From: an uncultured Pelagibacteraceae bacterium
GTDB taxonomy: Bacteria > Pseudomonadota > Alphaproteobacteria > Pelagibacterales > Pelagibacteraceae
Direction of reading: 5' to 3'
DNA: 64,000 nt
NCBI GenBank assembly: GCA_902588585.1
Contig: CACIPQ010000003.1
Location: 1 to 64,000 of the forward strand
Both the position numbers and the translations under genes were made by a program. The notes below the pieces were generated by a model. The model worked only from the letters and a program-made list of their open reading frames with translations, had not been told where the DNA came from and made no database searches. Shown in pieces: positions 1 through 15,228 of this stretch. Within the stretch, counting starts at the first letter, position 1; each line of letters begins with the position of its first letter.

Positions 1-354
1 TCTAAATTTTAATTTTTTTAATCCTTTGATCTCCATTAATTCAATTTTTTCAGCTTTTTTTGCAATTGAGTTTAATGGTTTTATTAAAAAATTTTCTAAA
101 TCTTCACCTACCCAAAATATAAGATCTGCCTCTTGTAGCATTTTTGCATGTGATGGTTTGAGTGCAAAACCGTGAGGTGAAGAATATCCATCCACTATCA
201 AATCAGGTTTGTTAACTCCGTCCATTAGATAGCTCGCTAATGAATGTATTGGCTTAATTGAAGTTACTACCTTTATTTCAGCATTTGCTGGTGTAAATAA
301 AGTTAAAAATGATAGTATTGATAAGATAAATGAAGCTTTTTTAAGATTTTTCAT
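1..354 (-). CDS. znuA: Zinc ABC transporter substrate-binding protein, N-terminal part
   Basis: Partial gene: the ATG is at 352-354 on the minus strand and the frame stays open to the window edge, giving the first 118 residues. Residues 1-21 form a Sec signal peptide (basic MKNLKK, hydrophobic core, ANA cleavage site). The mature start has the family pattern of a beta strand followed by KPIHSLASYL, then a histidine in SPHGFALKPSHA, the place of the first zinc ligand in ZnuA-type binding proteins, and a DLIFWVGEDLE segment. It would capture periplasmic Zn2+ for ZnuB/ZnuC, encoded divergently from 427. The His-rich loop and remaining ligands would lie outside the window. A manganese or iron relative of the same family is possible, but the ZnuCB-Zur neighbours favour zinc. 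Confidence 0.9.
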   Translation of the reverse strand, partial: MKNLKKASFILSILSFLTLFTPANAEIKVVTSIKPIHSLASYLMDGVNKPDLIVDGYSSPHGFALKPSHAKMLQEADLIFWVGEDLENFLIKPLNSIAKKAEKIELMEIKGLKKLKFR

Positions 355-374
355 AATTCCAATGTTTGTATATT

Positions 375-405
375 GTTATAATATAACGTTATGTAATAAT
401 GTAAC
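375..405. promoter_or_regulatory. Zur operator between znuA and znuC
   Basis: The 72-base divergent gap holds a palindrome, GTTATAATATAAC, at 375-387 (two 6-base arms around one A). It matches the core of the proteobacterial Zur box. A second, imperfect copy, GTAATAATGTAAC (11 of 13 identical), lies 18 bases further on at 393-405. A TATAAT hexamer lies inside the first palindrome (377-382). On the minus strand TTACAT and TTATAA are spaced 17 bases apart across the two sites. Zur bound here could repress both znuA and znuCB-zur, which would make zur autoregulated. The operator is read directly; the regulation is inferred from the zur gene at 2003. Confidence 0.8.
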
Positions 406-426
406 ATTTGAAAGTCAAGATACAAA

Positions 427-1173
427 ATGAGCCTAGATAAAAATATATTGGTTAAATTAAAGGATGCAGGTTTTCGCCAAAATGATAAGTGGCTTGTAAA
501 AGGCGTATCATTAGTAGTTGAAAAAGGAAAAATTGTGACCCTAATTGGCCCAAATGGTTCTGGGAAAAGCACAACTGCAAAAATTGCCTTGGGTATTTAT
601 AAAAAAATTGATGGTAAAGTTGAAAAATATACTAACAAAGTTGGGTATGTTCCCCAAAAAGTTTCGATAGATTGGACATTACCACTGAGAGTTAACGATT
701 TCATGGTCTTGACTGAAAATCTTAAAGATGATGCAATAAATGAAGCTTTATCATTAACAGGTGTTGAGCATCTTAAAAATAAAAATTTAGGAACCCTATC
801 TGGTGGTGAATTTCAAAGAGTTTTGCTTGCAAGAGCTATTTCAAAAAAACCAGAATTATTAGTACTTGATGAACCTGTTCAAGGAGTAGATTTCACTGGG
901 GAAATAGCTTTGTATGAATTAATAAAAAAAATATCAGAAGAATTAAACTGTGGAATTTTATTAATATCTCATGACTTGCATACAGTAATGAGTGCTACTG
1001 ACCATGTTGTTTGTTTAAATGGCCATGTGTGCTGTTCGGGTTCACCAATTGATGTTGCAAAAAACAAAGAATATAAAGTTTTATTCGGCGAACAAGCTTC
1101 GCAAACCCTTTCAATTTACGAACATAGACATGATCATGTTCATTCCCATGAAGGAGATATAAAGAAAAATTAA
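427..1173 (+). CDS. znuC: Zinc ABC transporter ATP-binding protein
   Basis: A 248-residue ABC ATPase that powers Zn2+ import through ZnuB. Walker A GPNGSGKST is at residues 41-49, then a Q-loop in VGYVPQ, the signature LSGGEFQRVLLARA near 124, Walker B LLVLDEP near 143 and an H-loop SHD near 180. The tail carries a His/Asp-rich stretch (HRHDHVHSH), common in ZnuC proteins and probably a cytoplasmic zinc-binding tail. ATG at 427 follows the Zur operator. The gene runs into znuB with a one-base gap, so the two are surely cotranscribed. Confidence 0.93.
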   Translation: MSLDKNILVKLKDAGFRQNDKWLVKGVSLVVEKGKIVTLIGPNGSGKSTTAKIALGIYKKIDGKVEKYTNKVGYVPQKVSIDWTLPLRVNDFMVLTENLKDDAINEALSLTGVEHLKNKNLGTLSGGEFQRVLLARAISKKPELLVLDEPVQGVDFTGEIALYELIKKISEELNCGILLISHDLHTVMSATDHVVCLNGHVCCSGSPIDVAKNKEYKVLFGEQASQTLSIYEHRHDHVHSHEGDIKKN

Positions 1174-1174
1174 A

Positions 1175-1978
1175 ATGTTTGATGATTTTTTTATAAGAGC
1201 GTTAGTTGCTGGAATTGGAGTTGCTTTTGTAACGGGCCCACTTGGTTGTTTTGTTGTGTGGAGAAGATTATCTTATTTTGGAGATACACTTGCACACTCA
1301 GCTTTACTCGGGGTTACTATGGCATATTCTTTTGAATTAAATATTGCTGTCTCGGTATTTTTAATTTCATCTATAATAGCTTTAATTTTAATACAACTTC
1401 AAAAGAAAACTAATCTTCCGGGTGATGCTTTGCTTGGTCTTTTAGCTCATTCCTCATTAGCAGTTGGTTTAGTAGTAATTGGTTTTTTAACATTTATCAG
1501 ATTTGATATTATGGGATTGTTATTTGGAGATATATTAGCTGTAACAATTGATGATTTGCTTATTATATGGATTGGCGGAGGATTAATTTTGCTAGTACTT
1601 AAATTAATTTGGAAACCTTTATTTGCATCAACAGTAAATTATGAATTAGCTGAAGCTGAAGGACTCAATCCAGATAGAGCAAAAGCAATATTTACAATTT
1701 TAATGGCTGCTATTATTGCAATTTCTATAAAAATGGTTGGTTTGTTGTTAATTACAGGAATGTTAATTATTCCAGCTGCTATGGCTAGAAACATCTCAGA
1801 CAATCCAAGAAAAATGATAATATTTTCAATAATTGGAGGATTGTTATCAGTAATTATTGGATTATTTTCTTCACTAGAATTTAATTCTCCTTCTGGACCT
1901 TCAATTATAACAGCTTCTTTAATTTTATTTATACTGTCATTGTTAAAAATAAAACAATCAATACATTTGAAAAACTAA
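1175..1978 (+). CDS. znuB: Zinc ABC transporter permease
   Basis: A 267-residue polytopic inner-membrane protein of the ABC-3 metal permease family, with seven to eight hydrophobic helices. The family-typical FVTGPLGCFVVWRRLSYFGDTLAHSALLG lies near the N terminus (written here as a positional description, residues about 18-46), and a conserved AEAEGLNP loop near residue 160 is the likely contact with ZnuC. A short KMVGLLLITGMLIIPAA membrane segment follows near 188. It starts one base after the znuC stop codon and is followed by zur. Confidence 0.93.
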   Translation: MFDDFFIRALVAGIGVAFVTGPLGCFVVWRRLSYFGDTLAHSALLGVTMAYSFELNIAVSVFLISSIIALILIQLQKKTNLPGDALLGLLAHSSLAVGLVVIGFLTFIRFDIMGLLFGDILAVTIDDLLIIWIGGGLILLVLKLIWKPLFASTVNYELAEAEGLNPDRAKAIFTILMAAIIAISIKMVGLLLITGMLIIPAAMARNISDNPRKMIIFSIIGGLLSVIIGLFSSLEFNSPSGPSIITASLILFILSLLKIKQSIHLKN

Positions 1979-2002
1979 TGGGTAATTGTTAAAATATAAA
2001 AA

Positions 2003-2401
2003 ATGCAAAAACAGCAATATCTTTCAAAAAATCAAAAAATAGTTTTAGAGCATGTTGAAAAAGCTAATCAACCTCTTAAGGCTTATTCGATATTATATAA
2101 TGTTCAAAAAAAAGGATTAAAAGCACCTCTACAAGTATATAGAGCTTTAGATAAATTAGTTGAAATAGGTAAAATTCATAAAATTGAAAGCAGAAATGCT
2201 TTTGTAGCGTGTAAAAATGCAAATTGTGTAGTTTCTAATGCAACTGCTTTTTCAATTTGCGAAAGTTGTGAAAAAGTCACTGAAATAAACAATTCAAAAC
2301 TTTCTAAATATCTAGGTAATTTTGAAGACAGCTCAGGAATGAAGTATAGCAAATATAACCTAGAATTCTTTGGTTTGTGCAAGAAGTGCAAAAACAAATA
2401 A
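2003..2401 (+). CDS. zur: Fur-family zinc uptake regulator
   Basis: A 132-residue Fur-family repressor with an N-terminal winged helix (VYRALDKLVEIGKIHKIES, residues 45-63) and a C-terminal metal/dimer domain. Two CxxC pairs (C86/C89 and C126/C129) match the structural zinc site. Of the regulatory-site ligands known from E. coli Zur (H77, C88, H96, E111), H59, C70 and E94 align, but the position of H96 is Asn79. An extra Cys75 nearby might substitute. The protein is shorter than E. coli Zur, with only about ten residues before the winged helix. It ends the znuCB operon and probably acts at the palindrome at 375-405. Position with znuCB makes Zur far likelier than Fur or PerR. Confidence 0.87.
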   Translation: MQKQQYLSKNQKIVLEHVEKANQPLKAYSILYNVQKKGLKAPLQVYRALDKLVEIGKIHKIESRNAFVACKNANCVVSNATAFSICESCEKVTEINNSKLSKYLGNFEDSSGMKYSKYNLEFFGLCKKCKNK

Positions 2402-2443
2402 AATAATCACAAAATAATTTAATAAAAATTAGAAAGGAGCATA

Positions 2444-2665
2444 ATGTTTATAAAAAAATATCTTAAATGGACAAGTACGTTTTTAACCTTATTTGGAATA
2501 TTGGCATTCTATTTAGATTACTATCCTTACAGCATGATACCTCACGGACTTGGTATTATTGGATGGACAGTTGTTGGAACCATAACAAAGGATAAACCTC
2601 TACTTACAAACTTTGCATTGCAAATACCTATAATGTTTGCGGGTATTATAAAATATTCAATTTAA
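2444..2665 (+). CDS. Small two-helix membrane protein, unknown function
   Basis: A 73-residue protein preceded by a strong Shine-Dalgarno (AAAGGAG at about 2431-2437), so it is probably translated well. It has a basic start (MFIKKYLKW), a first membrane helix (about residues 10-26), a short loop with Tyr and Pro, a second hydrophobic stretch (GLGIIGWTVVGTI), and a third, weaker one near the C terminus. Small proteins of this shape are common in Pelagibacter genomes, but I do not recognise a function. It lies between zur and the convergent phoB and ends inside a hairpin. Confidence 0.7.
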   Translation: MFIKKYLKWTSTFLTLFGILAFYLDYYPYSMIPHGLGIIGWTVVGTITKDKPLLTNFALQIPIMFAGIIKYSI

Positions 2666-2677
2666 GAATTGAATTTT
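2655..2677 (+). terminator. AU-rich hairpin terminator of the small membrane protein gene
   Basis: ATTCAATT and AATTGAAT form a perfect 8-base-pair stem around the loop TAAG, followed by TTTTT. The loop contains the gene's own stop codon. The stem has little G/C, so it is weak, but its place between two convergent genes suits a terminator. Confidence 0.5.
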
Positions 2678-2684
2678 TGAAAAG

Positions 2685-3368
2685 TCAGTTATCCAAAGAA
2701 TAACCTGCAGCTCGAACTGTCCTAATTAAGTCTTTTGTTCCTTCGAGATTAATTGCTTGTCTTAGTCTTCTAATATGTACGTCAACTGTTCTACTCTCAA
2801 CATTTATATTATCTCCCCAAACATTAGTTAATAATTGTTCTCTTGAATAAACCCTTTTTGGATTTTTTATAAAAAAATCAAGAAGGTTATATTCTGTTGG
2901 TCCTAAATCTATTTGTTTGTTTGCTCTATAAACTTTTCTAGTAATTCTATCTATTTTAAGATCTCCAAAAGAAATTATATCTTCTGCCACTGATGGTTTT
3001 GATCTTCTCAGCAAAGCTTTTATTCTTGCTAGTAGTTCAGGGAAACTAAAAGGTTTAGTAATATAATCGTCAGCACCAATATTCAGTGCTTTGACTTTAT
3101 CTTCTTCTTCACCTTTTGCTGTAAGCATTATAATAGGAATATTTTTATATTTTTCATTTTTCTTAAGTAGCTTACAAATTTCGACTCCGGATAAATCAGG
3201 CAACATCCAGTCCATCAAAACTAAATCTGGATTTGTATCTTTAATTGCTTTGAAACCATCTTCTCCATTAGTTGAAGAGTTTACTTTAAAACCTTCTTTG
3301 CTTAAGTTGTATTCTACAAGTGTTACTATTGATTGTTCGTCCTCAACTATATGAATATTTGCATTCAT
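2685..3368 (-). CDS. phoB: Phosphate regulon response regulator PhoB
   Basis: A 227-residue OmpR-family regulator. The receiver domain has the acidic pocket (VEDE at 8-11), phospho-acceptor D53 in LMDWMLPD and the switch lysine in ITKPFSFPELLARI. A C-terminal winged helix follows (about 130-227), with RVYSREQLLTNVWG and RTVDVHIRRLRQAI. It should bind Pho boxes such as those at 7504-7532 and 8690-8718 when phosphorylated by PhoR. Its ATG overlaps the phoU stop codon (ATGA), so the two are translationally coupled. It is the last gene of the pst operon. Unusually, phoR lies at the other end of the cluster. Confidence 0.95.
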   Translation of the reverse strand: MNANIHIVEDEQSIVTLVEYNLSKEGFKVNSSTNGEDGFKAIKDTNPDLVLMDWMLPDLSGVEICKLLKKNEKYKNIPIIMLTAKGEEEDKVKALNIGADDYITKPFSFPELLARIKALLRRSKPSVAEDIISFGDLKIDRITRKVYRANKQIDLGPTEYNLLDFFIKNPKRVYSREQLLTNVWGDNINVESRTVDVHIRRLRQAINLEGTKDLIRTVRAAGYSLDN

Positions 3369-4066
3369 TTATCTTTTACAAATTCTTTTCCTTTTGGCCT
3401 TGCGCCTTCTAAATATTCACCCTCAATCAAATAATAAAGTGACTCAGCTATATTTGTAACGTGATCGCCAGCTCTCTCGATATTTTTAGTAACAAAGAGT
3501 AAATGTGTAGCTAATTCTAAATTTTTTTTATTTTTCCCTAGAAAATTTGCAACCTCATTCATGGCAATATGAGTTAAATCATCTACTTGTTCATCATTTC
3601 TCCATACTTCGATGGCCTTGTCTTTAGATTTAGATATGTATGCATCTAAAACATTATTAAGCTGTTTCTGAACTAGTTCACCCAATCTTTTTAGACTACC
3701 TGTCAATTCTTGAGGTAAGTCAATTGGAAGTGGCTCAATTTTTTTGGCAACGCTTTTAGCTAAATCTCCGATCCTTTCTAAATCATGAGATATTTTAAGT
3801 GAGGATATAGTTGTTCTCAAATCAATAGCCATGGGTGCTCTTTTAACTAAAACAGTTGAAATTTGGTCATCTATTTTTGCTCGAAGCTCATTTATTTGAA
3901 CATCATTTTTTATGATATTTTCCGCCGCCTCTTTATCAATTTTTACAATTGCTTGAATAGTATCTGACAATTGACTTTCGGTTAGACTTCCCATTTTCAC
4001 AAGATCATCGTTTAAACTTTGCATCTCTTCTTCGTAAGATTTTACTATTCTTTTTTCTTCAGACAT
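3365..4066 (-). CDS. phoU: Phosphate signalling protein PhoU
   Basis: A 233-residue all-helical protein with two PhoU repeats (about 15-105 and 118-215). Each repeat carries the typical acidic helix patches: the segments around DLERIGDLAKSVAKK (near residue 95) and NIERAGDHVTNIAES (near 197) match the E/DxxxD metal-binding motifs. PhoU links PstB activity to PhoR and represses the regulon when phosphate is plentiful. It starts directly after the pstB stop codon and overlaps phoB by four bases. Confidence 0.94.
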   Translation of the reverse strand: MSEEKRIVKSYEEEMQSLNDDLVKMGSLTESQLSDTIQAIVKIDKEAAENIIKNDVQINELRAKIDDQISTVLVKRAPMAIDLRTTISSLKISHDLERIGDLAKSVAKKIEPLPIDLPQELTGSLKRLGELVQKQLNNVLDAYISKSKDKAIEVWRNDEQVDDLTHIAMNEVANFLGKNKKNLELATHLLFVTKNIERAGDHVTNIAESLYYLIEGEYLEGARPKGKEFVKDK

Positions 4067-4840
4067 CTAACCAAACCTTCCTGTAATATAATCTTGTGTC
4101 ATCTTGTTATTAGGATTTTTAAACATCTTATCAGTAGTATCGACTTCAATCAAATTTCCTAAATGAAAAAAACCAGTTCTTTGTGAGACCCTTACTGCTT
4201 GAGCCATAGAGTGAGTTACGATTACTATGGTAAAAGTTTTTTTAAGCTCCTCCATAAGTTCTTCTATTTTTGCTGTAGCAATTGGATCTAATGCAGAACA
4301 TGGTTCATCCATTAGAATTACTTCTGGATTAACAGATATAGCACGGGCGATGCAAAGTCTCTGTTGTTGTCCTCCTGATAAAGAAGTGCCTGGTTCATCT
4401 AAACGATCTTTAACCTCTTCCCAAAGTGCAGATTTTTTTAAACTTGTTTGAACAATCTGATCCAATTTATCTTTATGATCAGCTAAACCATGAATTTGTG
4501 GGCCATAAGCTACATTATCATAAATACTTTTTGGAAAAGGATTTGGCTTTTGGAAAACCATGCCTATTCTTTCCCTTAGTCTTACTACATCAATTTGTTT
4601 ATTATTTATTTCTTGTCCATCAATTTTTATTGAGCCAGATATTTTGCATGTTTCAATTACGTCGTTCATTCTATTAATACATCTTATATATGTTGATTTA
4701 CCACAACCCGAAGGTCCTATTAAGGCAGTAACTTCTCTATTAAAAATTTCTAAATTAACATTTTTAAGGGCTTGTTTTTGCCCATAAAAAACATCTAATT
4801 TTTCAGTTTTTATTTTAACTTTATTATTTGTCATGACCAT
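4067..4840 (-). CDS. pstB: Phosphate ABC transporter ATP-binding protein
   Basis: A 257-residue ABC ATPase driving high-affinity phosphate uptake. Walker [10 protein letters not shown] lies near residue 42, the signature [14 protein letters not shown] near 150 and Walker [17 protein letters not shown] near 170, all with strong PstB identity ([21 protein letters not shown] region). There are two in-frame ATGs at 4840 and 4834. Either start overlaps the pstA stop codon, so translation is coupled. Confidence 0.95.
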
Positions 4841-6093
4841 CTTCTTTCAAATTTTTGTCTTAAATATACTGCGAAAGCATTCATTGTAATTAAAAATGTA
4901 AGCAAAATCATTATTGTTGCCGAAGTTTTTTCAACAAAACCTCTTTCTGCTTGTTCTGACCAAAGATAGACCTGAACGGGTAATGATGCTGAGGGATCAA
5001 CGGGACTAGAAGGTAAGTCCACAACAAATGCGACCATTCCAATTAAAATTAAAGGAGCAGTTTCACCTAAAGCTTGAGCTAAACCTATTATTGTTCCTGA
5101 AAGTGTTCCCGGAATAGCAAGCGGAACAACATGGTGTGTAACTGATTGAACTTTAGATGCACCAACAGCTAAAGCACCTTCTCTAATAGATGGTGGCACT
5201 GCTTTTAAAGATGCTCTGCAAGGAATAATTATTCTAGGCAAAGTCATTAAAGCTAGAGTAATACCTGCAACTAACGGTGTTGAACGAGGGAAATCAAAAG
5301 TACCTAGTAAAATACCCAATCCAAGTAATCCAAAGACAATAGATGGGACTGCTGCAAGATTATTTATATTGATTTCAATAAAATCTGTTATTCGATTTTT
5401 AGGTGCAAATTCTTCTAAGTAAATAGATGCAAGTATCGCAATAGGAAATGATAAAAGCAAAGTTACTATGATTGTAAAAAACGAACCTAATAATGAACCT
5501 CCGACACCTGCTAATTCTGGATCTCTAGAGTCGCCGTTTGTAAATAAAAATGTATTAAAAGTTTTTTGAATTTTATTATCCTCAACAAGTTTGTCATAAA
5601 TCAAAAGCTGAAAGTCAGAGATTCTTCTCCTCTCTTCGGGTAAGTGCCTTGGATAATTTCCCTTGTTTAATTGATCTATATCATCTGAAGCTGTGAGTTC
5701 GATTATAGTTGTTTTGTTTAAGAATCCTTTATTTTCGATAATGAAATTCTTTATTTCAAATTCATAATCAGGGCTAAATATTCTTATCAAATCCTTTTCT
5801 TCTTTAAGACCTTTTGTTTTGTAAACATTTAACAAGCTTTCAATGGATAAATCATAAAAGTCTGTGTCTTGAATCTCTTCATTTGTTGGGTTGTTTTTAA
5901 TTTCAAGTTTTTCTGTATTGAAATCTACCTCTACAGATATTGTTGTTCTAGAAAATGCACCTTTTCCTTTTGAGAAAATAACATTTACTAAGAAGAGAAC
6001 AAATAAGATTGCTAAAATTACAGAGGTAAGTCCATAAAATTTAAATCTTTTTTCAGCTCTGTATCTTTTTTTTAATAATTCTTCTTTACTCAT
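4831..6093 (-). CDS. pstA: Phosphate ABC transporter permease PstA, long form
   Basis: About 420 residues, well above the roughly 300 of E. coli PstA. The extra part is an N-terminal membrane helix (about residues 20-42) plus a 130-residue periplasmic segment. It opens with [14 protein letters not shown], like the N-terminal DUF3333 domain of alphaproteobacterial PstA. The permease core follows ([19 protein letters not shown], then the coupling loop [21 protein letters not shown]). I chose ATG at 6093 rather than the TTG at 6117 because GGGA sits seven bases upstream of the ATG. It overlaps the end of pstC by eight bases. Confidence 0.93.
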
Positions 6094-7489
6094 ATTTTTC
6101 CCTATATTTTTTAACAAACCTTAGAGCAATATAGTTTAGAATTAATGTTGCAAAAAATAGTGTTAAACCTAAAGCAAAAGCAGATTGTGTTTTTGGACTA
6201 TCAAACTCTTGGTCTCCAATTAAAATCATAACTATTTGTGTGGTAATCGTTGTGGTCGACTCTAAAGGATTGATTGTAAGTCTTGCTGCTAGTCCAGCTG
6301 CCATAACTACGATCATTGTCTCGCCAATTGCTCTTGATACAGCGAGTAAAACCGAACCTACAATTCCTGGTAACGCGGCAGGTATAACTACTTTTTTTAT
6401 TGTCTCTGACTTAGTTGCACCAACTGCGTAAGAGCCATCTCTCAAAGATTGAGGTACTGCATTTATTACATCATCTGATAAAGAGGAAATGTACGGAATT
6501 ATCATTACACCCATTACTAAACCAGCCGCTAAAGCACTTTCAGAAGATACTTCGAGACCAAACCTTTCGCCGAATTCTCTAAAGAAAGGACCAACAGTTA
6601 ATGCAGCAAAGAATCCATAAACTACGGTTGGTATTCCAGCTAATATTTCTATGATTGGTTTAGAATATTTTCTAACTTTTTTACTTGCATATTCTGCTAA
6701 ATATATTCCTGAAAAAAGACCTATCGGAACAGCAACTATCATTGCAATAAAAGCTATAAATGCTGTACCAGCAAATAAGGGTACTGATCCAAAGGCATCT
6801 TTAAGTTCATTATATTCTTCTGGAGTAATAGTAGAGGCATCCCTAACAAATGCTCTTTGTGGGCTCCATGAAGTTCCAAACAAAAAGTCAAATATATTAA
6901 TTGTGGTAAAAAATTTAATACTCTCAAATAAAAGTGAAAAAATAATTCCAATTGTTGTTAAAATTGCAACTAGGGAACAGGTAAAAAGAACTGCTTTAAC
7001 AATTTTTTCTACCTCTTCTCTTGCCTTATTATTACTTATTAATTTTTTATAAGCATAAAGAGTGGTAAACATTAAAAAGCTTATCAGAATTACTATTTTC
7101 GATCCTTCGGCAATAGATAAGAAAGATTTATAATTTTCAGCACCTAATCTAATTTCTTCTGTGATTGTTCCTGTAAAATTTCCTGCATATAATGCAATTA
7201 TCTGTTGGTAAACTAAGTTTAATTCGTCAGGGTTTAATTCGCTCAAATTATTTGAGCTTAAATTGTTAATTATAATAGCTTTGATTATGGTCGGTTCAAA
7301 AACAGTCCATAAGGCTAAGATTAAAACTGCTGGAATCGCACACCATAAGGCTAAATAATAACCATAATAATCAGGTAGTGCGTTAGGTCTAATTTTATTT
7401 TCTGAAGTGATTTTTATTATTTTCTTTCTACCGAAAAAAAAACAAGATGTACTAAATAACACTACAAGCAAAAGAATTGCTAAGTTCAT
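6086..7489 (-). CDS. pstC: Phosphate ABC transporter permease PstC, long form
   Basis: A 467-residue permease, also longer than the E. coli protein (319). It has extra N-terminal helices, a periplasmic loop (about residues 75-125) and then the permease core with LAEYASKKVRKYSKPIIEIL and the coupling loop RDGSYAVGATKSETIKKVVIP. No Shine-Dalgarno is visible before ATG 7489, and a Pho box ends only 14 bases upstream, so the transcript may have little or no leader. It has its own operator although it lies downstream of pstS. Confidence 0.94.
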   Translation of the reverse strand: MNLAILLLVVLFSTSCFFFGRKKIIKITSENKIRPNALPDYYGYYLALWCAIPAVLILALWTVFEPTIIKAIIINNLSSNNLSELNPDELNLVYQQIIALYAGNFTGTITEEIRLGAENYKSFLSIAEGSKIVILISFLMFTTLYAYKKLISNNKAREEVEKIVKAVLFTCSLVAILTTIGIIFSLLFESIKFFTTINIFDFLFGTSWSPQRAFVRDASTITPEEYNELKDAFGSVPLFAGTAFIAFIAMIVAVPIGLFSGIYLAEYASKKVRKYSKPIIEILAGIPTVVYGFFAALTVGPFFREFGERFGLEVSSESALAAGLVMGVMIIPYISSLSDDVINAVPQSLRDGSYAVGATKSETIKKVVIPAALPGIVGSVLLAVSRAIGETMIVVMAAGLAARLTINPLESTTTITTQIVMILIGDQEFDSPKTQSAFALGLTLFFATLILNYIALRFVKKYREKYE

Positions 7490-7503
7490 GGTAGGAAGAC
7501 GGT

Positions 7504-7532
7504 ATTACAAAACTGTTACAGTTTTATTACAA
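7504..7532 (-). promoter_or_regulatory. Triple Pho box upstream of pstC
   Basis: On the minus strand three heptamers repeat every 11 bases: TTGTAAT, CTGTAAC, TTGTAAT, separated by AAAA and AGTT. This is the classical PhoB-box layout (consensus CTGTCAT-N4-CTGTCAT) with one extra half-site. It implies that pstCAB-phoUB has its own PhoB-activated promoter in addition to read-through from pstS. TAATAC, overlapping the third repeat, is the nearest -10-like hexamer, but it lies closer to the box than is usual. Confidence 0.82.
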
Positions 7533-7563
7533 AAATAAACTTTTGATTGAATTTTAAGTGTTT

Positions 7564-7596
7564 AAAAAAAGGCCAGATACTATATCTGGCCTTTTT
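7564..7596. terminator. Bidirectional intercistronic terminator between pstS and pstC
   Basis: GGCCAGATA and TATCTGGCC form a perfect nine-base-pair stem around the loop CTA (7571-7591), with seven A before it and five T after it, so it can act on either strand. It lies just past the pstS stop codon in the direction of transcription and before the pstC Pho box. It would cut most pstS transcripts here and give more binding protein than permease. Confidence 0.88.
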
Positions 7597-7606
7597 GAGG
7601 GATTAA

Positions 7607-8632
7607 TTACTTTATTTTAATAGTAGTTAGATCTGTTGCTGCAGTTCTTACTATTTTATACTTATCAGAAGCTAAAGGTACCAAACCAATATCTGTTAGA
7701 TATCCTCTAGGTCCCATTGATTTTTTTGAAGTAAATTCTTTCAAAAATTCTTGCACACCTGGCACTACACCGATGTGAGCCTTTTTCACATAGAAAAATA
7801 ATGGTCTTGCTATTGGATATGAATAATCTTGAATACCTTCAAGAGATGGTTTCACTCCGTTAATTGCTGCTGCTTTAATTTTATCTTTGTTAGCTAAATA
7901 ATAGCTGTAACCAAAAAAACCATAAGCATCTGGATTAGCAGTTAGCTTTTGAACTATAAGTGTATCATTTTCACCAGCCTCTACCGCATAACCATCTTCT
8001 CTCATTTTAGCACATTCTTTTTTAGCCTTTTTTCCATCAGCTTCGTAAAGAGATATTGCTGCTTTCGAACAACCTTTGTTCATTACTAATGAGTTCCAAG
8101 CATCTCTTGTACCAGAAGTTGGGGGAGCAATTAAAATTTCAATTTTTTTGTTTGGCAAACTTGTATCAATATCACTCCAGTTTTTGTATGGATTTTCAAC
8201 TAATTTACCATCCACATCAACTATAGAAGCTAAAGCTCTCCAAAGCTGCTCTTTTGTAAAATTTGCGTCTTGAGATTTAGCAGAGTGAGAAAAAGTTATT
8301 CCATCATTCCCCACAATTATTTCGACGATTTCTTTAACTCCATTTTTTTCACACAATGCTTTTTCTTTTGATTTAATAGCTCTTGAAGCATTTGTGATAT
8401 CTGGATGTGCAGTTCCTACACCTGCGCAAAATAATTTCATTCCTCCGCCAGTACCAGTACTTTCGATAACTGGAGTTTTAAATTTACTTTGTTTACCGAA
8501 TTTTTCAGCAACAACTGTTGCGTACGGATAAACTGTAGATGAACCTACAATTTTGATTTGATCTCTTGCTTGAGCTGTCGATGCAAAAATCATAGCAGCA
8601 AAAGCTAAAAGAATTATTTTTATTTTTTTCAT
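7607..8632 (-). CDS. pstS: Phosphate ABC transporter substrate-binding protein
   Basis: A 341-residue periplasmic phosphate-binding protein. The signal peptide ends at TAQA (residue 22). Phosphate-contact motifs follow: GSSTVYP at the start of the mature protein, the ESTGTGGG loop, SRAIK, and PTSGTRDAW near residue 170. AAGGA lies six bases before ATG 8632. A Pho box stands upstream and a strong terminator downstream, which fits the very high expression known for SAR11 PstS under phosphate stress. Confidence 0.96.
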   Translation of the reverse strand: MKKIKIILLAFAAMIFASTAQARDQIKIVGSSTVYPYATVVAEKFGKQSKFKTPVIESTGTGGGMKLFCAGVGTAHPDITNASRAIKSKEKALCEKNGVKEIVEIIVGNDGITFSHSAKSQDANFTKEQLWRALASIVDVDGKLVENPYKNWSDIDTSLPNKKIEILIAPPTSGTRDAWNSLVMNKGCSKAAISLYEADGKKAKKECAKMREDGYAVEAGENDTLIVQKLTANPDAYGFFGYSYYLANKDKIKAAAINGVKPSLEGIQDYSYPIARPLFFYVKKAHIGVVPGVQEFLKEFTSKKSMGPRGYLTDIGLVPLASDKYKIVRTAATDLTTIKIK

Positions 8633-8689
8633 GTTTTTTCCTTTTTTGTTGTTTTCAAGATCAATCTAGTAAAAAAGGGTTTAAAAATT

Positions 8690-8718
8690 GTTTCAGTAAT
8701 ATGAAAGTTTTGTTACAA
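8690..8718 (-). promoter_or_regulatory. Pho box upstream of pstS
   Basis: Reading the minus strand, TTGTAAC-AAAA-CTTTCAT (8701-8718) is a good PhoB box. A weaker third half-site, CTGAAAC, follows at the same 11-base spacing (8690-8696). The box lies about 60 bases upstream of the pstS ATG. No perfect -10 hexamer follows, as is common for PhoB-activated promoters. Confidence 0.75.
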
Positions 8719-8744
8719 GACTAACTTTTTAGTTGTGTTAGTAT

Positions 8745-9935
8745 TTAAATTGCTGGAAATTTAAGAACAAATTCGGTACCAACACCCTCTTCACTTTTAA
8801 TATCCATTTCAGCTCTGTGTTGGTTTATAATGTGTTTTACAATTGCTAGGCCGAGTCCAGTACCACCTACATCTTTACTTTTAGACGGATTTACCCTGAA
8901 AAATCTTTCAGTGACTCTGTGTATATATTCTTTTGGAATACCAATACCCTGATCTTTAATTGAAACGATTACGGACTCTTCATTGTTTTCAACATTAATA
9001 AATATTTTTTTACCTTTTTTGCTATATTTTGCGGCATTATCGATCAAATTAGAAAACACTTCTGTTAATCTATCTTGCTCTCCTAAAATCTCATATTCAT
9101 TATCTGGGGCTTTTAATTCAGCCTGTATTTCATTTTTTTTGAGTATCTCGTTATTCATTTCAATAACTGAAGATATAATTTTTTTAATATCTACCTTTTT
9201 TTCAGGTCTAATATGCTCTTGTAATTCTATTTTAGATAAAGAGAGTAGATCTCTAACAATATTCTCCATTCTAACCGTCTGTTGAAAAAGTATAGGTAAA
9301 AATTTCTTTTGGCTTTCAAAATCATTTGATGCATGTCCTTTATTTATCGTTTCTAGGCCTAATTTTATGCTTTGAAGAGGTGTTCTTAATTCATGAGATA
9401 CGTTTGCAACAAAGTCAGATCTTAGCCTTTGCGTCTTAATAATTTCTGTTAAATCTTTTAGAAAAATTACTATTGAATTTTGATTATTTAAAATTATGTA
9501 GGAAGAAAAGAACTGAAAAGTTGGATTATTAAGTTCAATATCAATTTTTTTATTTTTCTTTGTTGATAAGACAACATCAATATTTTGCAAAATTTCAGGA
9601 ACCCTTAAAACTGTAGCTATATGTTTACCTTGAAGTTTTTTTCCAAATTTTTTTGTAGCTGCTGTGTTTAAAAATTTTATATTTTTAAATTTATCAATCT
9701 CAAATAAAACATCATCTATTTGATTAAAAGTATTGCTCGATAATCCTTTTTCATTACCATTTAATTCTTCTTCTTCCAAAATTTCTTCTTCTTCTTCAAT
9801 TTCATCTGATTTTAGTTTGTCTTTTTGTCTATTTATTTCTGATTTTGCGGCTATACCTGCTCCGATGCTTTTAAAAGATACGAATATGACAAATATAGCA
9901 AGACCTGCGCCTATTAATATAAAGAGTAAATCCAT
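8745..9935 (-). CDS. phoR: Phosphate regulon sensor histidine kinase PhoR
   Basis: A 396-residue histidine kinase. One N-terminal membrane helix (about residues 3-22) is followed by a basic segment and a strongly acidic linker (about 44-58, mostly Glu). Next come a PAS-like region (about 70-165) and the H-box with phospho-acceptor H181 in ANVSHELRTPLQ. The ATPase core has NLIDNAAKYS, DQGIGIP and GGTGLGLAIV. It should phosphorylate PhoB when PstSCAB-PhoU reports low phosphate. With one membrane helix and no periplasmic domain it cannot sense phosphate outside the cell directly. It starts 21 bases after the NDUFA9-like gene stop and probably shares its transcript. Confidence 0.93.
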   Translation of the reverse strand: MDLLFILIGAGLAIFVIFVSFKSIGAGIAAKSEINRQKDKLKSDEIEEEEEILEEEELNGNEKGLSSNTFNQIDDVLFEIDKFKNIKFLNTAATKKFGKKLQGKHIATVLRVPEILQNIDVVLSTKKNKKIDIELNNPTFQFFSSYIILNNQNSIVIFLKDLTEIIKTQRLRSDFVANVSHELRTPLQSIKLGLETINKGHASNDFESQKKFLPILFQQTVRMENIVRDLLSLSKIELQEHIRPEKKVDIKKIISSVIEMNNEILKKNEIQAELKAPDNEYEILGEQDRLTEVFSNLIDNAAKYSKKGKKIFINVENNEESVIVSIKDQGIGIPKEYIHRVTERFFRVNPSKSKDVGGTGLGLAIVKHIINQHRAEMDIKSEEGVGTEFVLKFPAI

Positions 9936-9956
9936 TAATTAATTATAATTGCTAAT

Positions 9957-10898
9957 TTAAACTTTAGCAAATTCTCCACCTGAACGGTAGCGCCATAACC
10001 ACTTTTCCATTTCTTTTTCGACGTCTGTTGGTTTTATGTTTAGGTCTTGAATAGTTGAATGGTCGCCTGAAACTATATTGTCTTTTTCTGATAGTATTAA
10101 ACACTGATCTTTTGTTAAAATTGGAGGAATTGGAAGTAATCCTAAAAGTGTACTTTGTATTTTAGCAAGTGTCATTGGCATTTCTACAACTAGCCTTTTT
10201 TTTCCAATTATTCTTAAAATTGATTTTACCATATCTTGAAAACTGATGATTTTTTCTCCACCAATTTCATAAATTTTTCCTTCATTGTTTTTAGCCTCGA
10301 TAGCTTTTAGAATGCCTCTTGCAACATCATTTACAAAAATAGGTTGAAATTTATAATTCATATTAACCAAGGGAATGATTGGTGAGAAACTTAATTTAGC
10401 AAATAAATTAGTAAAATTATCTTCGCTGCCACAAACAACACTTGGTCTAATCACTACTGTATTTTTAAAATTAAGAGCCTTTTCCTCTCCTAAAAATTTC
10501 GATTGTTGATATTTTGATTTAGATTCTTTGCTTGCACCAATTGCACTTACATGAATAAATTTTTTTACATTAGCTTGCGTGCATAGCTTTGAGATTGTTT
10601 CAGGTAAATCGACGTGAATCGTATTAAACTTTTGTTTTCTACTTTCGTATAAAATTCCGCAGAGATTTATAACAACATCTGAATTGCTGATAGCATTTTT
10701 AATTTCATCAAAATTTTTTGTGCTAAAATTAATAATTTCTATAGCCCCTGCTTGTGCTTGAGTCTTCAAATAGCCTTTAGTAAAGGGATTTCGAGTCGGA
10801 ATGATGCATCTAAAGTTTCTCTTGGTCAAATTTCGGACAAGATATCTTCCTATAAACCCACCACCACCAAGGATTGTTGCTATTGGGTAATTATTCAT
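9957..10898 (-). CDS. NAD(P)-binding protein, complex I NDUFA9-like family
   Basis: About 313 residues of the atypical short-chain dehydrogenase family. A glycine-rich NAD(P) motif GGGGFIGRYL stands at the N terminus, followed by VVINLCGILY, HVSAIGAS, a YxxxK-like YQQSK, and an RPSVVCG segment. Bacterial members resemble the NDUFA9 accessory subunit of mitochondrial complex I; quinone or sugar-nucleotide roles are also possible. I start it at ATG 10898 (MNNYPIATILGG), because an earlier start would run 54 bases further and overlap the divergent gene at 10916. Confidence 0.85.
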   Translation of the reverse strand: MNNYPIATILGGGGFIGRYLVRNLTKRNFRCIIPTRNPFTKGYLKTQAQAGAIEIINFSTKNFDEIKNAISNSDVVINLCGILYESRKQKFNTIHVDLPETISKLCTQANVKKFIHVSAIGASKESKSKYQQSKFLGEEKALNFKNTVVIRPSVVCGSEDNFTNLFAKLSFSPIIPLVNMNYKFQPIFVNDVARGILKAIEAKNNEGKIYEIGGEKIISFQDMVKSILRIIGKKRLVVEMPMTLAKIQSTLLGLLPIPPILTKDQCLILSEKDNIVSGDHSTIQDLNIKPTDVEKEMEKWLWRYRSGGEFAKV

Positions 10899-10915
10899 GG
10901 TATTGAAGAATAGGT

Positions 10916-11542
10916 ATGGCAAAAATACATAAATTTCAAGGAGACATAACAAAAGAAGTAGCTAATTCACTTAAAGAATCTATTGCAATTGATACTGAAG
11001 CTACGGGTTTACAAATTCCTGAAAGAGATAAATTAAGTCTAATTCAAATTTGTGATCAAAATGGTGCTGTTTACATCATACAACCAGACCGGAAGAATTA
11101 TAAAGCTCCGAATCTTGTTTCTGTTTTAGAAAATGAGAAAATTTTAAAAATTGGTCATTTTTTAAGATTTGATAAAAGTGCCTTAGAATACTTTTTAAAA
11201 TGCAAGGTTAAAAATATTTTTGATACTAAAATCGCAAGTAAAGTTGTTAGAACATACACGGACCAGCATGGTCTTAAAAATTTAGTTTACGAATTTTGTA
11301 ATAAAACTTTGGACAAAAGAGTAAGTAGCAGTGATTGGAACAAAGATATAAATGAGTTAAGTGACAAGCAGTTAGAGTACGCTGCAAACGATGTAATTTT
11401 TCTTCACAAGATAAAATCCGAGCTTGAAAAGATGTTGAAGAGAGAAAACAGAATGGAATTATATAAAAATTGCATTACTTTCCTAGACACAAGAATTCAG
11501 CTGGATCAATCAGGATTTAAATTTGATATATTTGAACATTAA
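10916..11542 (+). CDS. rnd: RNase D-like 3'-5' exonuclease
   Basis: A 208-residue DEDDy exonuclease. ExoI AIDTEATGL is near residue 23, ExoII with HFLRFDKSAL near 82, and ExoIII YAANDVIFLHKI near 155, where Tyr and Asp complete the metal site. It contains only the exonuclease domain; the two HRDC domains of E. coli RNase D are absent, as in other short alphaproteobacterial forms. It probably trims stable RNA precursors. Its last base overlaps the first of kdsD (TAATG). Confidence 0.85.
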   Translation: MAKIHKFQGDITKEVANSLKESIAIDTEATGLQIPERDKLSLIQICDQNGAVYIIQPDRKNYKAPNLVSVLENEKILKIGHFLRFDKSALEYFLKCKVKNIFDTKIASKVVRTYTDQHGLKNLVYEFCNKTLDKRVSSSDWNKDINELSDKQLEYAANDVIFLHKIKSELEKMLKRENRMELYKNCITFLDTRIQLDQSGFKFDIFEH

Positions 11543-12525
11543 TGCCAAAAATAAATTATATAAAAATAGCAAAAAAATCTGCCGGTATACAAATTAAAGA
11601 GTTAAAAAAAATCAATAAAGTTTTTAATAAAGATTTCGTAAGAGCTGTTGAAACCATACATAAAACTAAGGGAAAGGTTGTTTGTTCAGGAGTTGGAAAA
11701 TCAGGATTAATAGCTAGAAAAGTAAGTGCCTCACTATCTTCTGTGGGTATAAGTTCTTTTTTTCTTGATCCCAATTCAGCTATACACGGGGATCTTGGAC
11801 AAATTGATAACAGAGATGTGTTAGTTGTTTTTTCATACTCAGGCAATACCTCAGAGCTTACCAATTTACTAAGGTATGCAAATAGATTTGGAATTAAAAT
11901 TATTGGAGTTGCTTCAATAAAAGATAGTTTGTTAATTAAAGCAAGCGATATTCCTCTTCTTATTCCAAGAGTTAAAGAAGCTGATCCAATCGGTATGGTT
12001 CCAAGCTCAAGCACATCAATTACTCTTTTGCTAGGTGATTGTTTGATGGCTGCACTCCTAACAAAACAAAAATTTACCAAAGAAAGATTTAAACTTTATC
12101 ATCCTGGAGGAAATATTGGAAAAGCACTGTTATTAGTAAAAGACATAATGTTAACAGGAAATAAAATTCCATTAATAAATTTTAATAACAATATAGTTAG
12201 TGCTGTAAAAATTATTAGTAAGAAAAACTTGGGTATAGGAATTATTGTTAAAAATAAAAAGGCGGTTGGAATAGTTACAGATGGAGATATAAGACGAGGG
12301 ACAAAAAATTATTCAAAAAAAACTAAAATTACAGCTCTGATGACAAAAAAACCTATGCACATAGGAGAGGATGCTTCGGCTGCTAAAGCTCTTTCTATCA
12401 TGAACGAAAAGAAAATTACCAGCCTAATAGTGTCTTCTGACTTAGATTACAAAAAAAAGAAAAATGTCTTTAAACCAAGGGGAATACTACACATACATTC
12501 GTTACTAAAATATGGTATGAAATAA
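11542..12525 (+). CDS. kdsD: Arabinose-5-phosphate isomerase (KdsD/KpsF)
   Basis: A 327-residue protein with an N-terminal SIS sugar-isomerase domain (VVCSGVGKSGLIARKVSASL near 48, SAIHGDLGQID, FSYSGNTSEL) and two C-terminal CBS domains (about 200-260 and 268-325). It converts ribulose-5-phosphate to arabinose-5-phosphate, the first step to Kdo for lipopolysaccharide. It is followed by lptC and lptB, a usual partnership, but the phosphatase gene kdsC is not next to it. Confidence 0.93.
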   Translation: MPKINYIKIAKKSAGIQIKELKKINKVFNKDFVRAVETIHKTKGKVVCSGVGKSGLIARKVSASLSSVGISSFFLDPNSAIHGDLGQIDNRDVLVVFSYSGNTSELTNLLRYANRFGIKIIGVASIKDSLLIKASDIPLLIPRVKEADPIGMVPSSSTSITLLLGDCLMAALLTKQKFTKERFKLYHPGGNIGKALLLVKDIMLTGNKIPLINFNNNIVSAVKIISKKNLGIGIIVKNKKAVGIVTDGDIRRGTKNYSKKTKITALMTKKPMHIGEDASAAKALSIMNEKKITSLIVSSDLDYKKKKNVFKPRGILHIHSLLKYGMK

Positions 12526-12529
12526 ATAT

Positions 12530-13117
12530 ATGCTAACTAAAAGAAAATTTTTCCAATTAACTCTTATATTAACGGGTTTGTGTATTTTATTTTTTACTTA
12601 CTTTTATAATTTAAGAACGGATCGGCCTCTTGAAGCGGATAAAGAGAAAGAAATTGTTAAAAAAGAAGAAATAAGTGATGAAGAAATTAATAAATTTGAA
12701 AATGTCGAATATCAAGGTATAGACAATACTGGAAACAGATTTGTTATAGGTTCAAATTATGCACAATTTGAGCAGGAGAGACCTGAAATTATAAATATGG
12801 AAACCATAAAATGTACATTTTATTTTAAAGATAATACGGTTTTAACAATCATTGCTGATAGCGGTGTCTTTAATAATATTACAAATGACATGAAATTTTC
12901 AGATAACGTTAAAATGAACTATCTTGAAAGTGTTTTATTTTCAGATAGAGCTGTATTTAATAATTATGAGGATCAGCTTTTGGTAGCTGGAAACGTTAGG
13001 GGAGAAAACTCTCAATCAAAACTAAAGGCAGATGAACTAGAATTTGATTTAAATACTAAAAATTTAAAAATTTCCATGTATAGTGATGAAAGAGTAAATA
13101 TTAAAACAAATTTCTAA
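12530..13117 (+). CDS. lptC: LPS export protein LptC
   Basis: A 195-residue membrane-anchored periplasmic protein. One N-terminal helix (about residues 10-27) is followed by an acidic linker (EKEIVKKEEISDEE) and a beta-jellyroll region (YQGIDNTGNRFVIGSNYAQ onwards) of the LptC/OstA type. LptC links the LptBFG extractor to LptA. The last part, ending DELEFDLNTKNLKI, also resembles LptA, yet the anchor and the context favour LptC. It abuts lptB without a gap, where lptA is usually found. Confidence 0.83.
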   Translation: MLTKRKFFQLTLILTGLCILFFTYFYNLRTDRPLEADKEKEIVKKEEISDEEINKFENVEYQGIDNTGNRFVIGSNYAQFEQERPEIINMETIKCTFYFKDNTVLTIIADSGVFNNITNDMKFSDNVKMNYLESVLFSDRAVFNNYEDQLLVAGNVRGENSQSKLKADELEFDLNTKNLKISMYSDERVNIKTNF

Positions 13118-13873
13118 ATGAGAAAAAAGTTCAGAATAATAAAATTTAAAAAAAATAAGCCTGTTCTACAAGTCAGGGGTGTGAGCAAATCATTTAGTGG
13201 AAGACCTGTTTTAAAAAAAATCAGTTTAGAAGTATTTCCTGGTGAAATAATTGGATTAGTCGGGCCAAATGGTTCTGGTAAGTCAACGCTGTATGGAACT
13301 ATCATAGGTCAATACAAGGTAGACTCAGGAAGCATCTCATTAAGTCAGAAAGATATTACAGAAAAACCCATACACGAAAGAGCAAAACTTGGTATTACCT
13401 ATTTAAGTCAATATCGAAATGTTTTTAATATGAGTGTTTACGACAACCTTATGGGGATATGCCAAATTTCGATAAAGGGTAAACAAAAACAAAGAGAAGT
13501 TGTTGAAAAATTATTGAGTGAATTTCAATTAGAACATTTGCGAAGTCTTAACAGTTCAGTACTTAGCGGCGGTGAAGTTCGTAGACTTCAAATTGCGAGA
13601 ACCTTAATAAATAATCCTAAAGTAATTTTACTGGACGAACCAATGGCAGCTTTGGATCCAATTATCGTGCAGGACATTCAAAAATATATTTTAAAACTCC
13701 AATCTTATGGTTGCGGAATCATAATTACGGATCACCAAGTACAAAATTTATTTCAAATAGTCGATCGGGCTTACGTAATTGGAGAACACACAATAATAGC
13801 CGAAGGTAAACCAAAAGATATCTTGCAATCCACAAAAGCTAGGGAATTATATTTTGGTTCATTTGACAGTTAA
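13118..13873 (+). CDS. lptB: LPS export ABC transporter ATP-binding protein LptB
   Basis: A 251-residue ABC ATPase. Walker A GPNGSGKST is near residue 50, with a Q-loop TYLSQYRNVFNMSV, signature LSGGEVRRLQIARTL and Walker B VILLDEPMAALDPI. It extracts lipopolysaccharide from the inner membrane together with LptFG, encoded elsewhere. A basic N-terminal extension (MRKKFRIIKFKKNK) precedes the domain. The ATG follows the lptC stop codon immediately. Confidence 0.9.
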   Translation: MRKKFRIIKFKKNKPVLQVRGVSKSFSGRPVLKKISLEVFPGEIIGLVGPNGSGKSTLYGTIIGQYKVDSGSISLSQKDITEKPIHERAKLGITYLSQYRNVFNMSVYDNLMGICQISIKGKQKQREVVEKLLSEFQLEHLRSLNSSVLSGGEVRRLQIARTLINNPKVILLDEPMAALDPIIVQDIQKYILKLQSYGCGIIITDHQVQNLFQIVDRAYVIGEHTIIAEGKPKDILQSTKARELYFGSFDS

Positions 13874-13878
13874 CGCAG

Positions 13879-15228
13879 ATGGCAAAGGAACATTTCTCTG
13901 TAATTTTTAAAAAAAAAATTAATAGATTTAATAAAAGTGTCAGAGTTGATTCTGACAAATCAATTTCACAAAGAAGCTTTATTATTGGTTCAATTTCTGA
14001 AGGTGTTTCAAAAGTCAAAAACGCTCTAGAATCAGAAGATATATTTTCTACAATTAATTGTTTACGTAAATTAAATTGTAAAATTGAAAAAATAAAAGTG
14101 GGAGAGTATAAAATTTACGGTAAAGGTTTAGGTAGCTTTTATTGTAAAAAAAACACAATGCTAAATTTTGGTAACTCAGGTACTGCGGCTCGATTATTAG
14201 GCTTTGGGGTATGCAGTACAAATCCAAATATACAAATAAGACTAACTGGAGATAAGAGCCTTAGAAAAAGAAGTATGTATAAAATTATTAAAGTTATGGA
14301 GCAATTTGGTGCTGAATTTTTTCCTAAAAATAAATTTAATTTTCCTTTGACTTTAATTTCATCAGAAATGCCAATTGGATTTAAATTTAATACAGGCATT
14401 TCAAGTCAAATAAAGTCTGCTGTTATGCTTGCTGGTACAAACTCTTATGGAAAAACTTTAGTAGTTGAAAAGATAAAAAGCAGAGACCACACAGAAAGAA
14501 TGCTGAAACACAACGCTGGCGTTGTCAAAATAAAAAAAGGTAAAGAAAATCTTGTTGAGATTAAAGGAAAAAAAAGTTTAAAACCAATCAATATATTGGT
14601 TCCGGGAGATCCTTCTTCTGCAAGTTTCTATGCAGGACTGTGCCTTTTAAATAAAAATTCAGAAATCATTTTAAAAAGTGTACACATCAACCCTACGCGA
14701 GTTGGTTTCTTTAATATAATTAAAAAACACAAAGGAAAAATAAGTTTTAAAAATAAAAAAATTCAAGGCAATGAAATGATAGCTGATATACATGTTAAAA
14801 GTAGCAAAATGAAACCTTTAAAAGTAGGAGAAAAGTTTTTTGTAAGTTGCCAAGACGAATATCCTTTAATGATTTCAATGAGTGCACTTTTGCCAGGCAC
14901 TTCAATTTTTAAAGGTATAGAAGACTTAGCAAATAAAGAAAGTAACCGTATTAAGGAAATGCAAAAAATTTTAAGTCAAATTGGGATAAAAACTCGTGCC
15001 TCAAAAAATGAGATGAAAGTTTATGGAAACCCAAATTTAAATGTTCGAGGTAAAAAAATTAGTGTTTCTGGAGTTTTTGATCATAGAATTTTAATGTCCG
15101 CAGCAATTTTAAGTTTGTTAACTGGTATCAATGCAAAACTTAAAAATTTTGAACAAGTTAAAACTAGCTGCCCAAATTTTTTATCAACTATAGTTGGTCT
15201 TGGAGGAAAATTTGAAGTCAAAAAATAA
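13879..15228 (+). CDS. aroA: 3-phosphoshikimate 1-carboxyvinyltransferase (EPSP synthase)
   Basis: A 449-residue shikimate-pathway enzyme that transfers enolpyruvyl from PEP to shikimate-3-phosphate. Substrate-site motifs are readable: DKSISQRSFIIGS near the N terminus, the LNFGNSGTAARLLGFGV loop where most enzymes have GNAGT, the GDKSLRKRSM segment, SSQIKSAVMLAGT, DPSSASFYA and a DEYPLM stretch. The end contains SVSGVFDHRILMSAAI. It overlaps cmk by 17 bases. Confidence 0.94.
   Translation: MAKEHFSVIFKKKINRFNKSVRVDSDKSISQRSFIIGSISEGVSKVKNALESEDIFSTINCLRKLNCKIEKIKVGEYKIYGKGLGSFYCKKNTMLNFGNSGTAARLLGFGVCSTNPNIQIRLTGDKSLRKRSMYKIIKVMEQFGAEFFPKNKFNFPLTLISSEMPIGFKFNTGISSQIKSAVMLAGTNSYGKTLVVEKIKSRDHTERMLKHNAGVVKIKKGKENLVEIKGKKSLKPINILVPGDPSSASFYAGLCLLNKNSEIILKSVHINPTRVGFFNIIKKHKGKISFKNKKIQGNEMIADIHVKSSKMKPLKVGEKFFVSCQDEYPLMISMSALLPGTSIFKGIEDLANKESNRIKEMQKILSQIGIKTRASKNEMKVYGNPNLNVRGKKISVSGVFDHRILMSAAILSLLTGINAKLKNFEQVKTSCPNFLSTIVGLGGKFEVKK

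Follow-up and report, generated by a model that had tools for sequence, protein, structure and literature searches.

A predicted PhoB-activated promoter with a near-leaderless message directly before pstC in SAR11 bacteria

Results

The pst-pho locus and the heptamers upstream of pstC

The window (the whole 64,000-nucleotide stretch of SAR11 DNA analysed here) carries on its minus strand the gene order phoR-pstS-pstC-pstA-pstB-phoU-phoB. The features of this locus, all on the minus strand and given in the direction of transcription, are as follows:

8745..9935, minus strand: phoR-like sensor kinase; best match TIGR02966 (phoR_proteo), 297 bits, under the cut-off of 334
8690..8718, minus strand: three-half-site Pho box of pstS, TTGTAAC-AAAA-CTTTCAT-ATTA-CTGAAAC; third half-site 6/7
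7607..8632, minus strand: pstS; sole NCBIfam match TIGR02136 (ptsS_2), 155.5 bits, under the curated cut-off of 206.6
7564..7596, minus strand: terminator-like hairpin with a run of seven T, after pstS; −18.9 kcal/mol, z −6.9
7526..7532, minus strand: half-site 1, TTGTAAT; putative upstream half of the activating Pho box
7515..7521, minus strand: half-site 2, CTGTAAC; putative downstream half of the activating Pho box, predicted to replace the −35 element
7504..7510, minus strand: half-site 3, TTGTAAT; 11 bp past half-site 2, sharing a base with the predicted −10
7499..7504, minus strand: predicted −10 element, TACCGT; 10 nt past half-site 2
7490..7492, minus strand: predicted transcription start at 7492 (A) and leader of ~3 nt, placed from the −10 position
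6086..7489, minus strand: pstC; TIGR02138 above cut-off; ATG start without a Shine-Dalgarno motif
3365..6117, minus strand: pstA, pstB and phoU; each above its NCBIfam cut-off
2685..3368, minus strand: phoB; predicted activator and final gene of the unit; TIGR02154 (PhoB equivalog) at 327 bits, over the cut-off of 296

PstC proteins identical to that of the window by up to 94% occur in named Pelagibacteraceae records, and by 100% in others. A solved-structure search with PhoB gave five related regulators among the matches listed, and an Rfam search of positions 1-16000 returned no known RNA. Adjoining the pst-pho cluster on the plus strand (427-2401), the translated open reading frames resemble a znuC/znuB-type zinc transporter and a Fur/Zur-like regulator.

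The pstS-pstC gap of 117 bases holds the T7 hairpin followed by three heptamers, which read TTGTAAT-AAAA-CTGTAAC-AGTT-TTGTAAT on the minus strand from 7532 to 7504. The first-pass annotation had described three heptamers at an exact 11-base period that end 14 bases before the pstC ATG, and both statements were borne out by the window sequence: the heptamers occupy 7532-7526, 7521-7515 and 7510-7504, and bases 7503-7490 separate the last of them from the ATG at 7489-7487. The exact triple YTGTAAY-N4-YTGTAAY-N4-YTGTAAY occurred once in the window and in none of 60 second-order Markov simulations (calculated expectation 7.7e-6 per 64 kb, or ~1.2e-4 per genome). Across the genome (992,303 bases, 87% complete), the exact pair YTGTAAY-N4-YTGTAAY was found at the pstC site only, as two overlapping pairs. 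A scan for further Pho sites with one mismatch allowed gave noise, with 10 places (both pstC pairs included) versus 15 in the reversed control.

The pstC site has two direct half-sites of 7 nt separated by 4 nt (11-nt period), in a genome that encodes PhoB and in front of a phosphate gene (TIGR02154 and TIGR02138, both above cut-off).

A predicted −10 element at a fixed distance from the Pho box

Comparison of box-bearing relatives places the predicted −10 element at a constant offset from the box. We collected 29 distinct box-bearing pstC promoters from 55 locus rows, with some genomes represented twice, selecting them by the half-site pattern at no more than 45 nt from the start codon. The dinucleotide TA stands exactly 10 nt past half-site 2 in 29/29 of them, and the runner-up offset for TA reached 11/29. 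In the window this offset gives TACCGT, which agrees with TATAAT at positions 1, 2 and 6 only; the same offset of 10 nt in E. coli K-12 gives TATAGT at phoA and CATAAT at phoB, which we take to be the −10 elements of those promoters. Two other candidates for the −10, TGTAAT and TAATAC at 5-8 nt past half-site 2, were dropped, as column counts gave TA throughout only at offset 10. A scan of 7300-8900 for sigma-70 promoters and terminators made no call at the pstC site, where the fixed 10-nt spacing to the −10 comes without a −35 hexamer.

Both half-sites of the presumed activating pair are kept among these relatives. Half-site 1 is mostly TTGTAAC/T, with ATTTAAC in loci L011 and L032 (outside the strict pattern, and inside the wider one used for the counts of 59 and 29 sequences), while half-site 2 reads NTGTAAC in 27 distinct sequences, 20 of them from the loci and 7 taken from the 397-genome pattern search described below. 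These observations support a PhoB-type promoter directly before pstC, as judged from sequence and its conservation.

With the −10 at 7504-7499, transcription would start near 7492, 3 nt ahead of the pstC ATG. In each of the 29 promoters the ATG follows half-site 2 by 21-25 nt (25 in 22/29; search range 18-27), so that a start at offset 22 would leave a leader of 3 nt in most and of −1 to 2 nt in the rest. Start positions commonly shift by one or two bases.

Start codons and Shine-Dalgarno motifs point to probable leaderless translation

An earlier suggestion, drawn from the spacing, that the pstC transcript is leaderless gained support in the form of a (nearly) leaderless message, as the conserved TA puts the nominal predicted start no more than 3 nt from the ATG. 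The translation signals of pstC were then compared in 59 distinct upstream sequences (from 110 loci, of which 78 had a PstC identity of at least 62%), with Shine-Dalgarno motifs sought in the 15 bases before the start. All 22 distinct upstreams of the box class had an ATG start and 21 of the 22 lacked the motif, as does the window, where an ATG without a motif fits the sequence pattern of a leaderless gene. The 37 upstreams of the no-box class used TTG (17), GTG (5) or ATG (15), with a Shine-Dalgarno motif in 29/37 and the remaining 8 all starting with ATG. On the PstC tree the box and no-box classes are clustered, with two switches between them near which branch support is weak, so this association amounts to a few events rather than 59.

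According to the accessible part of a review (PMC9031893), AUG is the favoured start codon of leaderless messages in E. coli and Caulobacter, while GUG is well accepted by some other bacteria. Given the AUG preference in those two species, the contrast between classes fits leaderless versus leadered pstC messages. No unusual structure was evident in the ~60 nt at the 5' end of the predicted pstC message (z −0.31). From these sequence features, the 5' end of the pstC mRNA probably lies just ahead of the ATG, by a few bases, and its translation is probably leaderless.

The hairpin after pstS and the extent of the transcription units

The pstC site had been proposed as a second PhoB control point inside one operon. 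A PhoB-type promoter of its own for pstC agrees with that proposal; a single operon in the strict sense is improbable, as a hairpin with a T7 tract follows pstS. The terminator scan missed this hairpin, probably since A-T pairs pull the T run into the stem, and the fold shows it clearly. Its position between pstS and the pstC box implies that the pstC promoter probably drives a second transcription unit. We therefore consider that pstS and pstCAB-phoUB are probably two units, each with its own Pho box, and that pstC is probably the first gene of a pstCAB-phoU-phoB unit.

Among box-bearing rows, 7-8 of the 8 bases past the stem were T in 21/21 with a called hairpin (in one row none was called), and the hairpin lay 66-81 nt before the pstC ATG (81 nt in the window). 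The nearest no-box clade (8 rows) had its hairpin 19-32 nt before the start codon, with no more than 5 T in 8. A different picture came from 29 rows of distant no-box relatives (PstC identity 63-66%), where a T tract of 6-8 T in 8 follows a hairpin 22-44 nt from the start codon, no box precedes pstC, and a Shine-Dalgarno motif is present in 21/29. Unless those relatives hide another promoter, transcription there must be able to pass the hairpin, and these rows count against a strict rule of "terminator plus new promoter".

Such relatives raise the prospect that most pstC expression in the window, too, comes from transcripts that begin at the pstS promoter and run through the hairpin, which would do no more than reduce the level; the pstC box would then be a minor booster. 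This arrangement would suit the usual demand for more PstS than PstCAB. However, with pstC lacking a motif and the hairpin 81 nt away, a read-through message would probably be poorly translated in the window, and the T-poor hairpins belong to the nearer no-box clade (≤5 T in 8, versus 7-8 T in the 21 box-bearing rows). We regard read-through as an improbable main route, and retain two probable units.

The two pstC classes also meet within a single genus. In genus g1, PstC was of two kinds, with 94-100% versus about 64% identity to the window; the pstC box was present with the former and absent from the latter where upstreams were read. Such a split suggests that the pst locus has been exchanged or replaced. 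Separately, genome G051 (contigs C61 and C17) carries two full-length PstC copies with 68% identity to the window.

The third half-site at pstC and pstS

The first-pass annotation had treated all three heptamers as one extended PhoB site. Half-sites 1 and 2 are kept across relatives, but an exact third heptamer at the 11-bp period was present in only 4/29 distinct pstC promoters, all from g1 and g2, the two genera nearest to the window. Half-site 3 overlaps the first base of the predicted −10, and an activating role for it is unlikely.

One way to give it such a role would be for PhoB to activate from half-sites 2 and 3, or from all three, using TACCAT (7493-7488) as the −10; this would put the transcription start within pstC as annotated and shift the first translated codon downstream. 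In the window TACCAT does lie exactly 10 nt past half-site 3. It is not kept, however, being TGCGAT in the sister species and CAAAAT in the g2 genomes, whereas TA occurs 10 nt past half-site 2 in every one of the 29 promoters, and the PstC proteins of the nearest relatives align from residue 1 or 2. The pstS promoters described below tell against it as well, with TA 10 nt past half-site 3 in 1/59 and TA/CA past half-site 2 in 59/59. We consider this arrangement highly improbable, and keep half-sites 1 and 2 as the presumed activating pair.

The pstS promoters of SAR11 were scored for half-sites with a degenerate pattern that was set after seeing the sequences, taking the best triple per upstream and treating shuffled sequences alike; loci without a pstS match, those with <120 nt upstream and L052 (pstS cut by the contig end) were left out of the sample. 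The best 11-bp triple scored at least 18/21 in 59/59 distinct promoters, compared with 0.5% of 1,180 shuffled sequences. At 10 nt past half-site 2 the dinucleotide was TA in 47/59 and CA in 12/59, where T/C at offset 10 is partly built in, as the score accepts C/T at the last base, and A at offset 11 is not. The pstS promoter of the window, with CAATTT 10 nt past half-site 2, has a box among the weaker pstS ones. At both genes, as read from sequence, half-site 3 would lie between the activating pair and the −10 and share its last base with the −10.

The third heptamer at pstC may still be fortuitous, a −10-flanking TGTAATA beside a plain two-half-site Pho box that alone matters. It is absent at pstC in 25/29 distinct promoters, and in locus L010 the spacing to a CTGTAAT is 14 bp instead of 11, as would fit a −10-related sequence. 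Against this, an exact heptamer at that one fixed place has a chance of ~5e-4 (9e-4 if the last T is taken as given), TTGTAAT is kept between g1 and g2 although their PstC proteins differ by 18% and the 4-nt spacer differs, and third half-sites are the rule at SAR11 pstS promoters. We hold a fortuitous origin to be possible, if short of probable.

By position, half-site 3 (7504-7510) stands next to the predicted −10, where an auto-repression half-site would fit. We propose, by analogy with E. coli phoB, a second PhoB register on half-sites 2 and 3 through which half-site 3 would act as a mild brake; this is a guess, and a tentative one, with the odds against it.

Pattern search across the family

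A search of 397 family genomes, drawn from a larger group, with TGTAAY-N5-TGTAAY-N18..30-ATGAA gave a match in 63 genomes, while the reversed control gave 0. The 63 places comprise 36 directly before pstC (assigned by coordinates), 24 of one type in genus g4, 2 before an arsC-like gene, and 1 in G158, a genome without a PstC match, that looks like chance. The 24 g4 places are near-identical, and the one that was read (G046) is the pstS promoter; a leaderless pstS gene was ruled out there (locus L148), the ATG opening a frame of 7 codons only.

In the two remaining genomes, a Pho box precedes an arsenate-reductase-like gene followed by an aquaporin-like gene (498-541 in L145 of G036; 468-511 in L146 of G049; both gene names come from reading translations). 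Here TA lies 10 nt on, as read by eye, and the ATG lies at offset 22. From its sequence, this box suggests that arsenic handling is controlled by phosphate starvation and that the start of this gene, too, is leaderless. As an independent case with TA at the same offset, the gene counts in favour of the pstC promoter model.

Among the pstC loci collected, L010 (G053:C1:1131414-1132811), with its near-heptamer CTGTAAT 14 bp on, is probably that of strain HTCC1062, judging by its pstC coordinates. The accessible part of an earlier study contains an HTCC1062 pstC/pstS intergenic entry at 1132812-1132928 (PMC2704228).

Discussion

Proposed mechanism

Based on the sequence features above, we propose a PhoB-activated promoter for a pstC-pstA-pstB-phoU-phoB unit with a near-leaderless message, to which, leaving the brake aside, we assign a probability of roughly 0.8. 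Under phosphate starvation, as the gene set implies, PhoB would be phosphorylated and bind as a dimer to half-sites 1 and 2 in tandem, in the place of a −35 element. Bound PhoB would recruit RNA polymerase to the weak −10 TACCGT 10 nt downstream, as the comparison of relatives and the geometry of E. coli promoters suggest. Transcription would start near 7492, giving an mRNA with few bases before the ATG that may be translated leaderless. The pstC unit ends with phoB, so that the promoter would also form a positive PhoB feedback loop. The pstS gene upstream would belong to another unit, which has a Pho box of three half-sites and a leader of roughly 45 nt and ends with the terminator-like hairpin.

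Half-site 3 might add a further layer, in that abundant PhoB~P could bind the non-activating register 2+3 and exert a mild brake. Taken to its full extent, this would make the site a SAR11 dual-register PhoB operator, in which half-sites 1+2 activate and rising PhoB~P shifts to 2+3, capping its own synthesis, fused to a leaderless pstC-phoB message. We consider that complete scheme unlikely.

Relation to known Pho promoters

One close parallel is E. coli phoB, which has two activating half-sites, a hexamer (CATAAT) at the 10-nt offset past the second, and phoB within the controlled unit, all as predicted for the window save the letters of the hexamer. In our own reading CTGACGC is a degenerate third half-site there, which keeps the 11-bp period and overlaps the hexamer by one base. 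It differs from the window in having a leader of ~40 nt (from a distance of 63 nt), whereas in the window the third heptamer is perfect and the ATG stands at the predicted start. In the accessible part of the E. coli phoB paper, repression is assigned not to the third half-site but to another half-site pair, on the antisense strand near the −10; that paper also refers to earlier footprinting, where a high concentration of PhoB protected a region upstream of the −10. At E. coli phoA the Pho box likewise replaces the −35, with TATAGT exactly 10 nt past the second heptamer; unlike the window, phoA has two half-sites, and 62 nt lie between the second half-site and the start codon.

In Caulobacter crescentus, the accessible part of a published study (PMC11208175) shows pstC-pstA-pstB-phoU-phoB under their own PhoB-dependent promoter, distinct from that of pstS, and pstS as a separate unit. 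Its pstS is presumably located elsewhere in the genome, whereas in the window pstS is directly upstream of pstC behind the hairpin. Streptomyces PhoP operators also contain a variable number of 11-nt direct repeats, divided into simple and complex classes in the accessible part of the source (PMC4415409), but involve another regulator with the consensus GTTCACC in a distant phylum. The type of switch is therefore well known, with precedents at E. coli phoB and Caulobacter pstC, and its tight fit to the gene start is modestly new.

Among the matches listed in a search of the open-access literature, there was no Pho-box analysis of SAR11 pst genes and no SAR11 start-site map, and within the same scope we did not find the promoter rule, the near-zero pstC leader or the clade-wide third half-site at pstS described for SAR11. 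Pho boxes have been predicted in plcP gene clusters, and SAR11 strains also carry plcP, according to the accessible part of that work (PMC4796936). A structural study of SAR11 PstS names the pst genes and PhoB/PhoU of HTCC7211, and the words "promoter" and "operon" occur only in the reference list within its accessible part (PMC12421899).

Implications for SAR11 phosphate regulation

SAR11 bacteria rank among the most abundant cells of the ocean, and phosphate can limit them. The present comparison yields a checkable Pho rule for SAR11, i.e. two half-sites 11 nt apart followed at 10 nt by TA/CA, with a third half-site at pstS, and this rule may help to chart the Pho regulons of these little-studied genomes. 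A further prediction from the comparison is a pstC message that is leaderless in some lineages and leadered in others. If the dual-register reading were true, control from operator to start codon would be held within 46 nt of a streamlined genome, and the three-half-site design seen at 59/59 pstS promoters would be the general Pho promoter of the clade.
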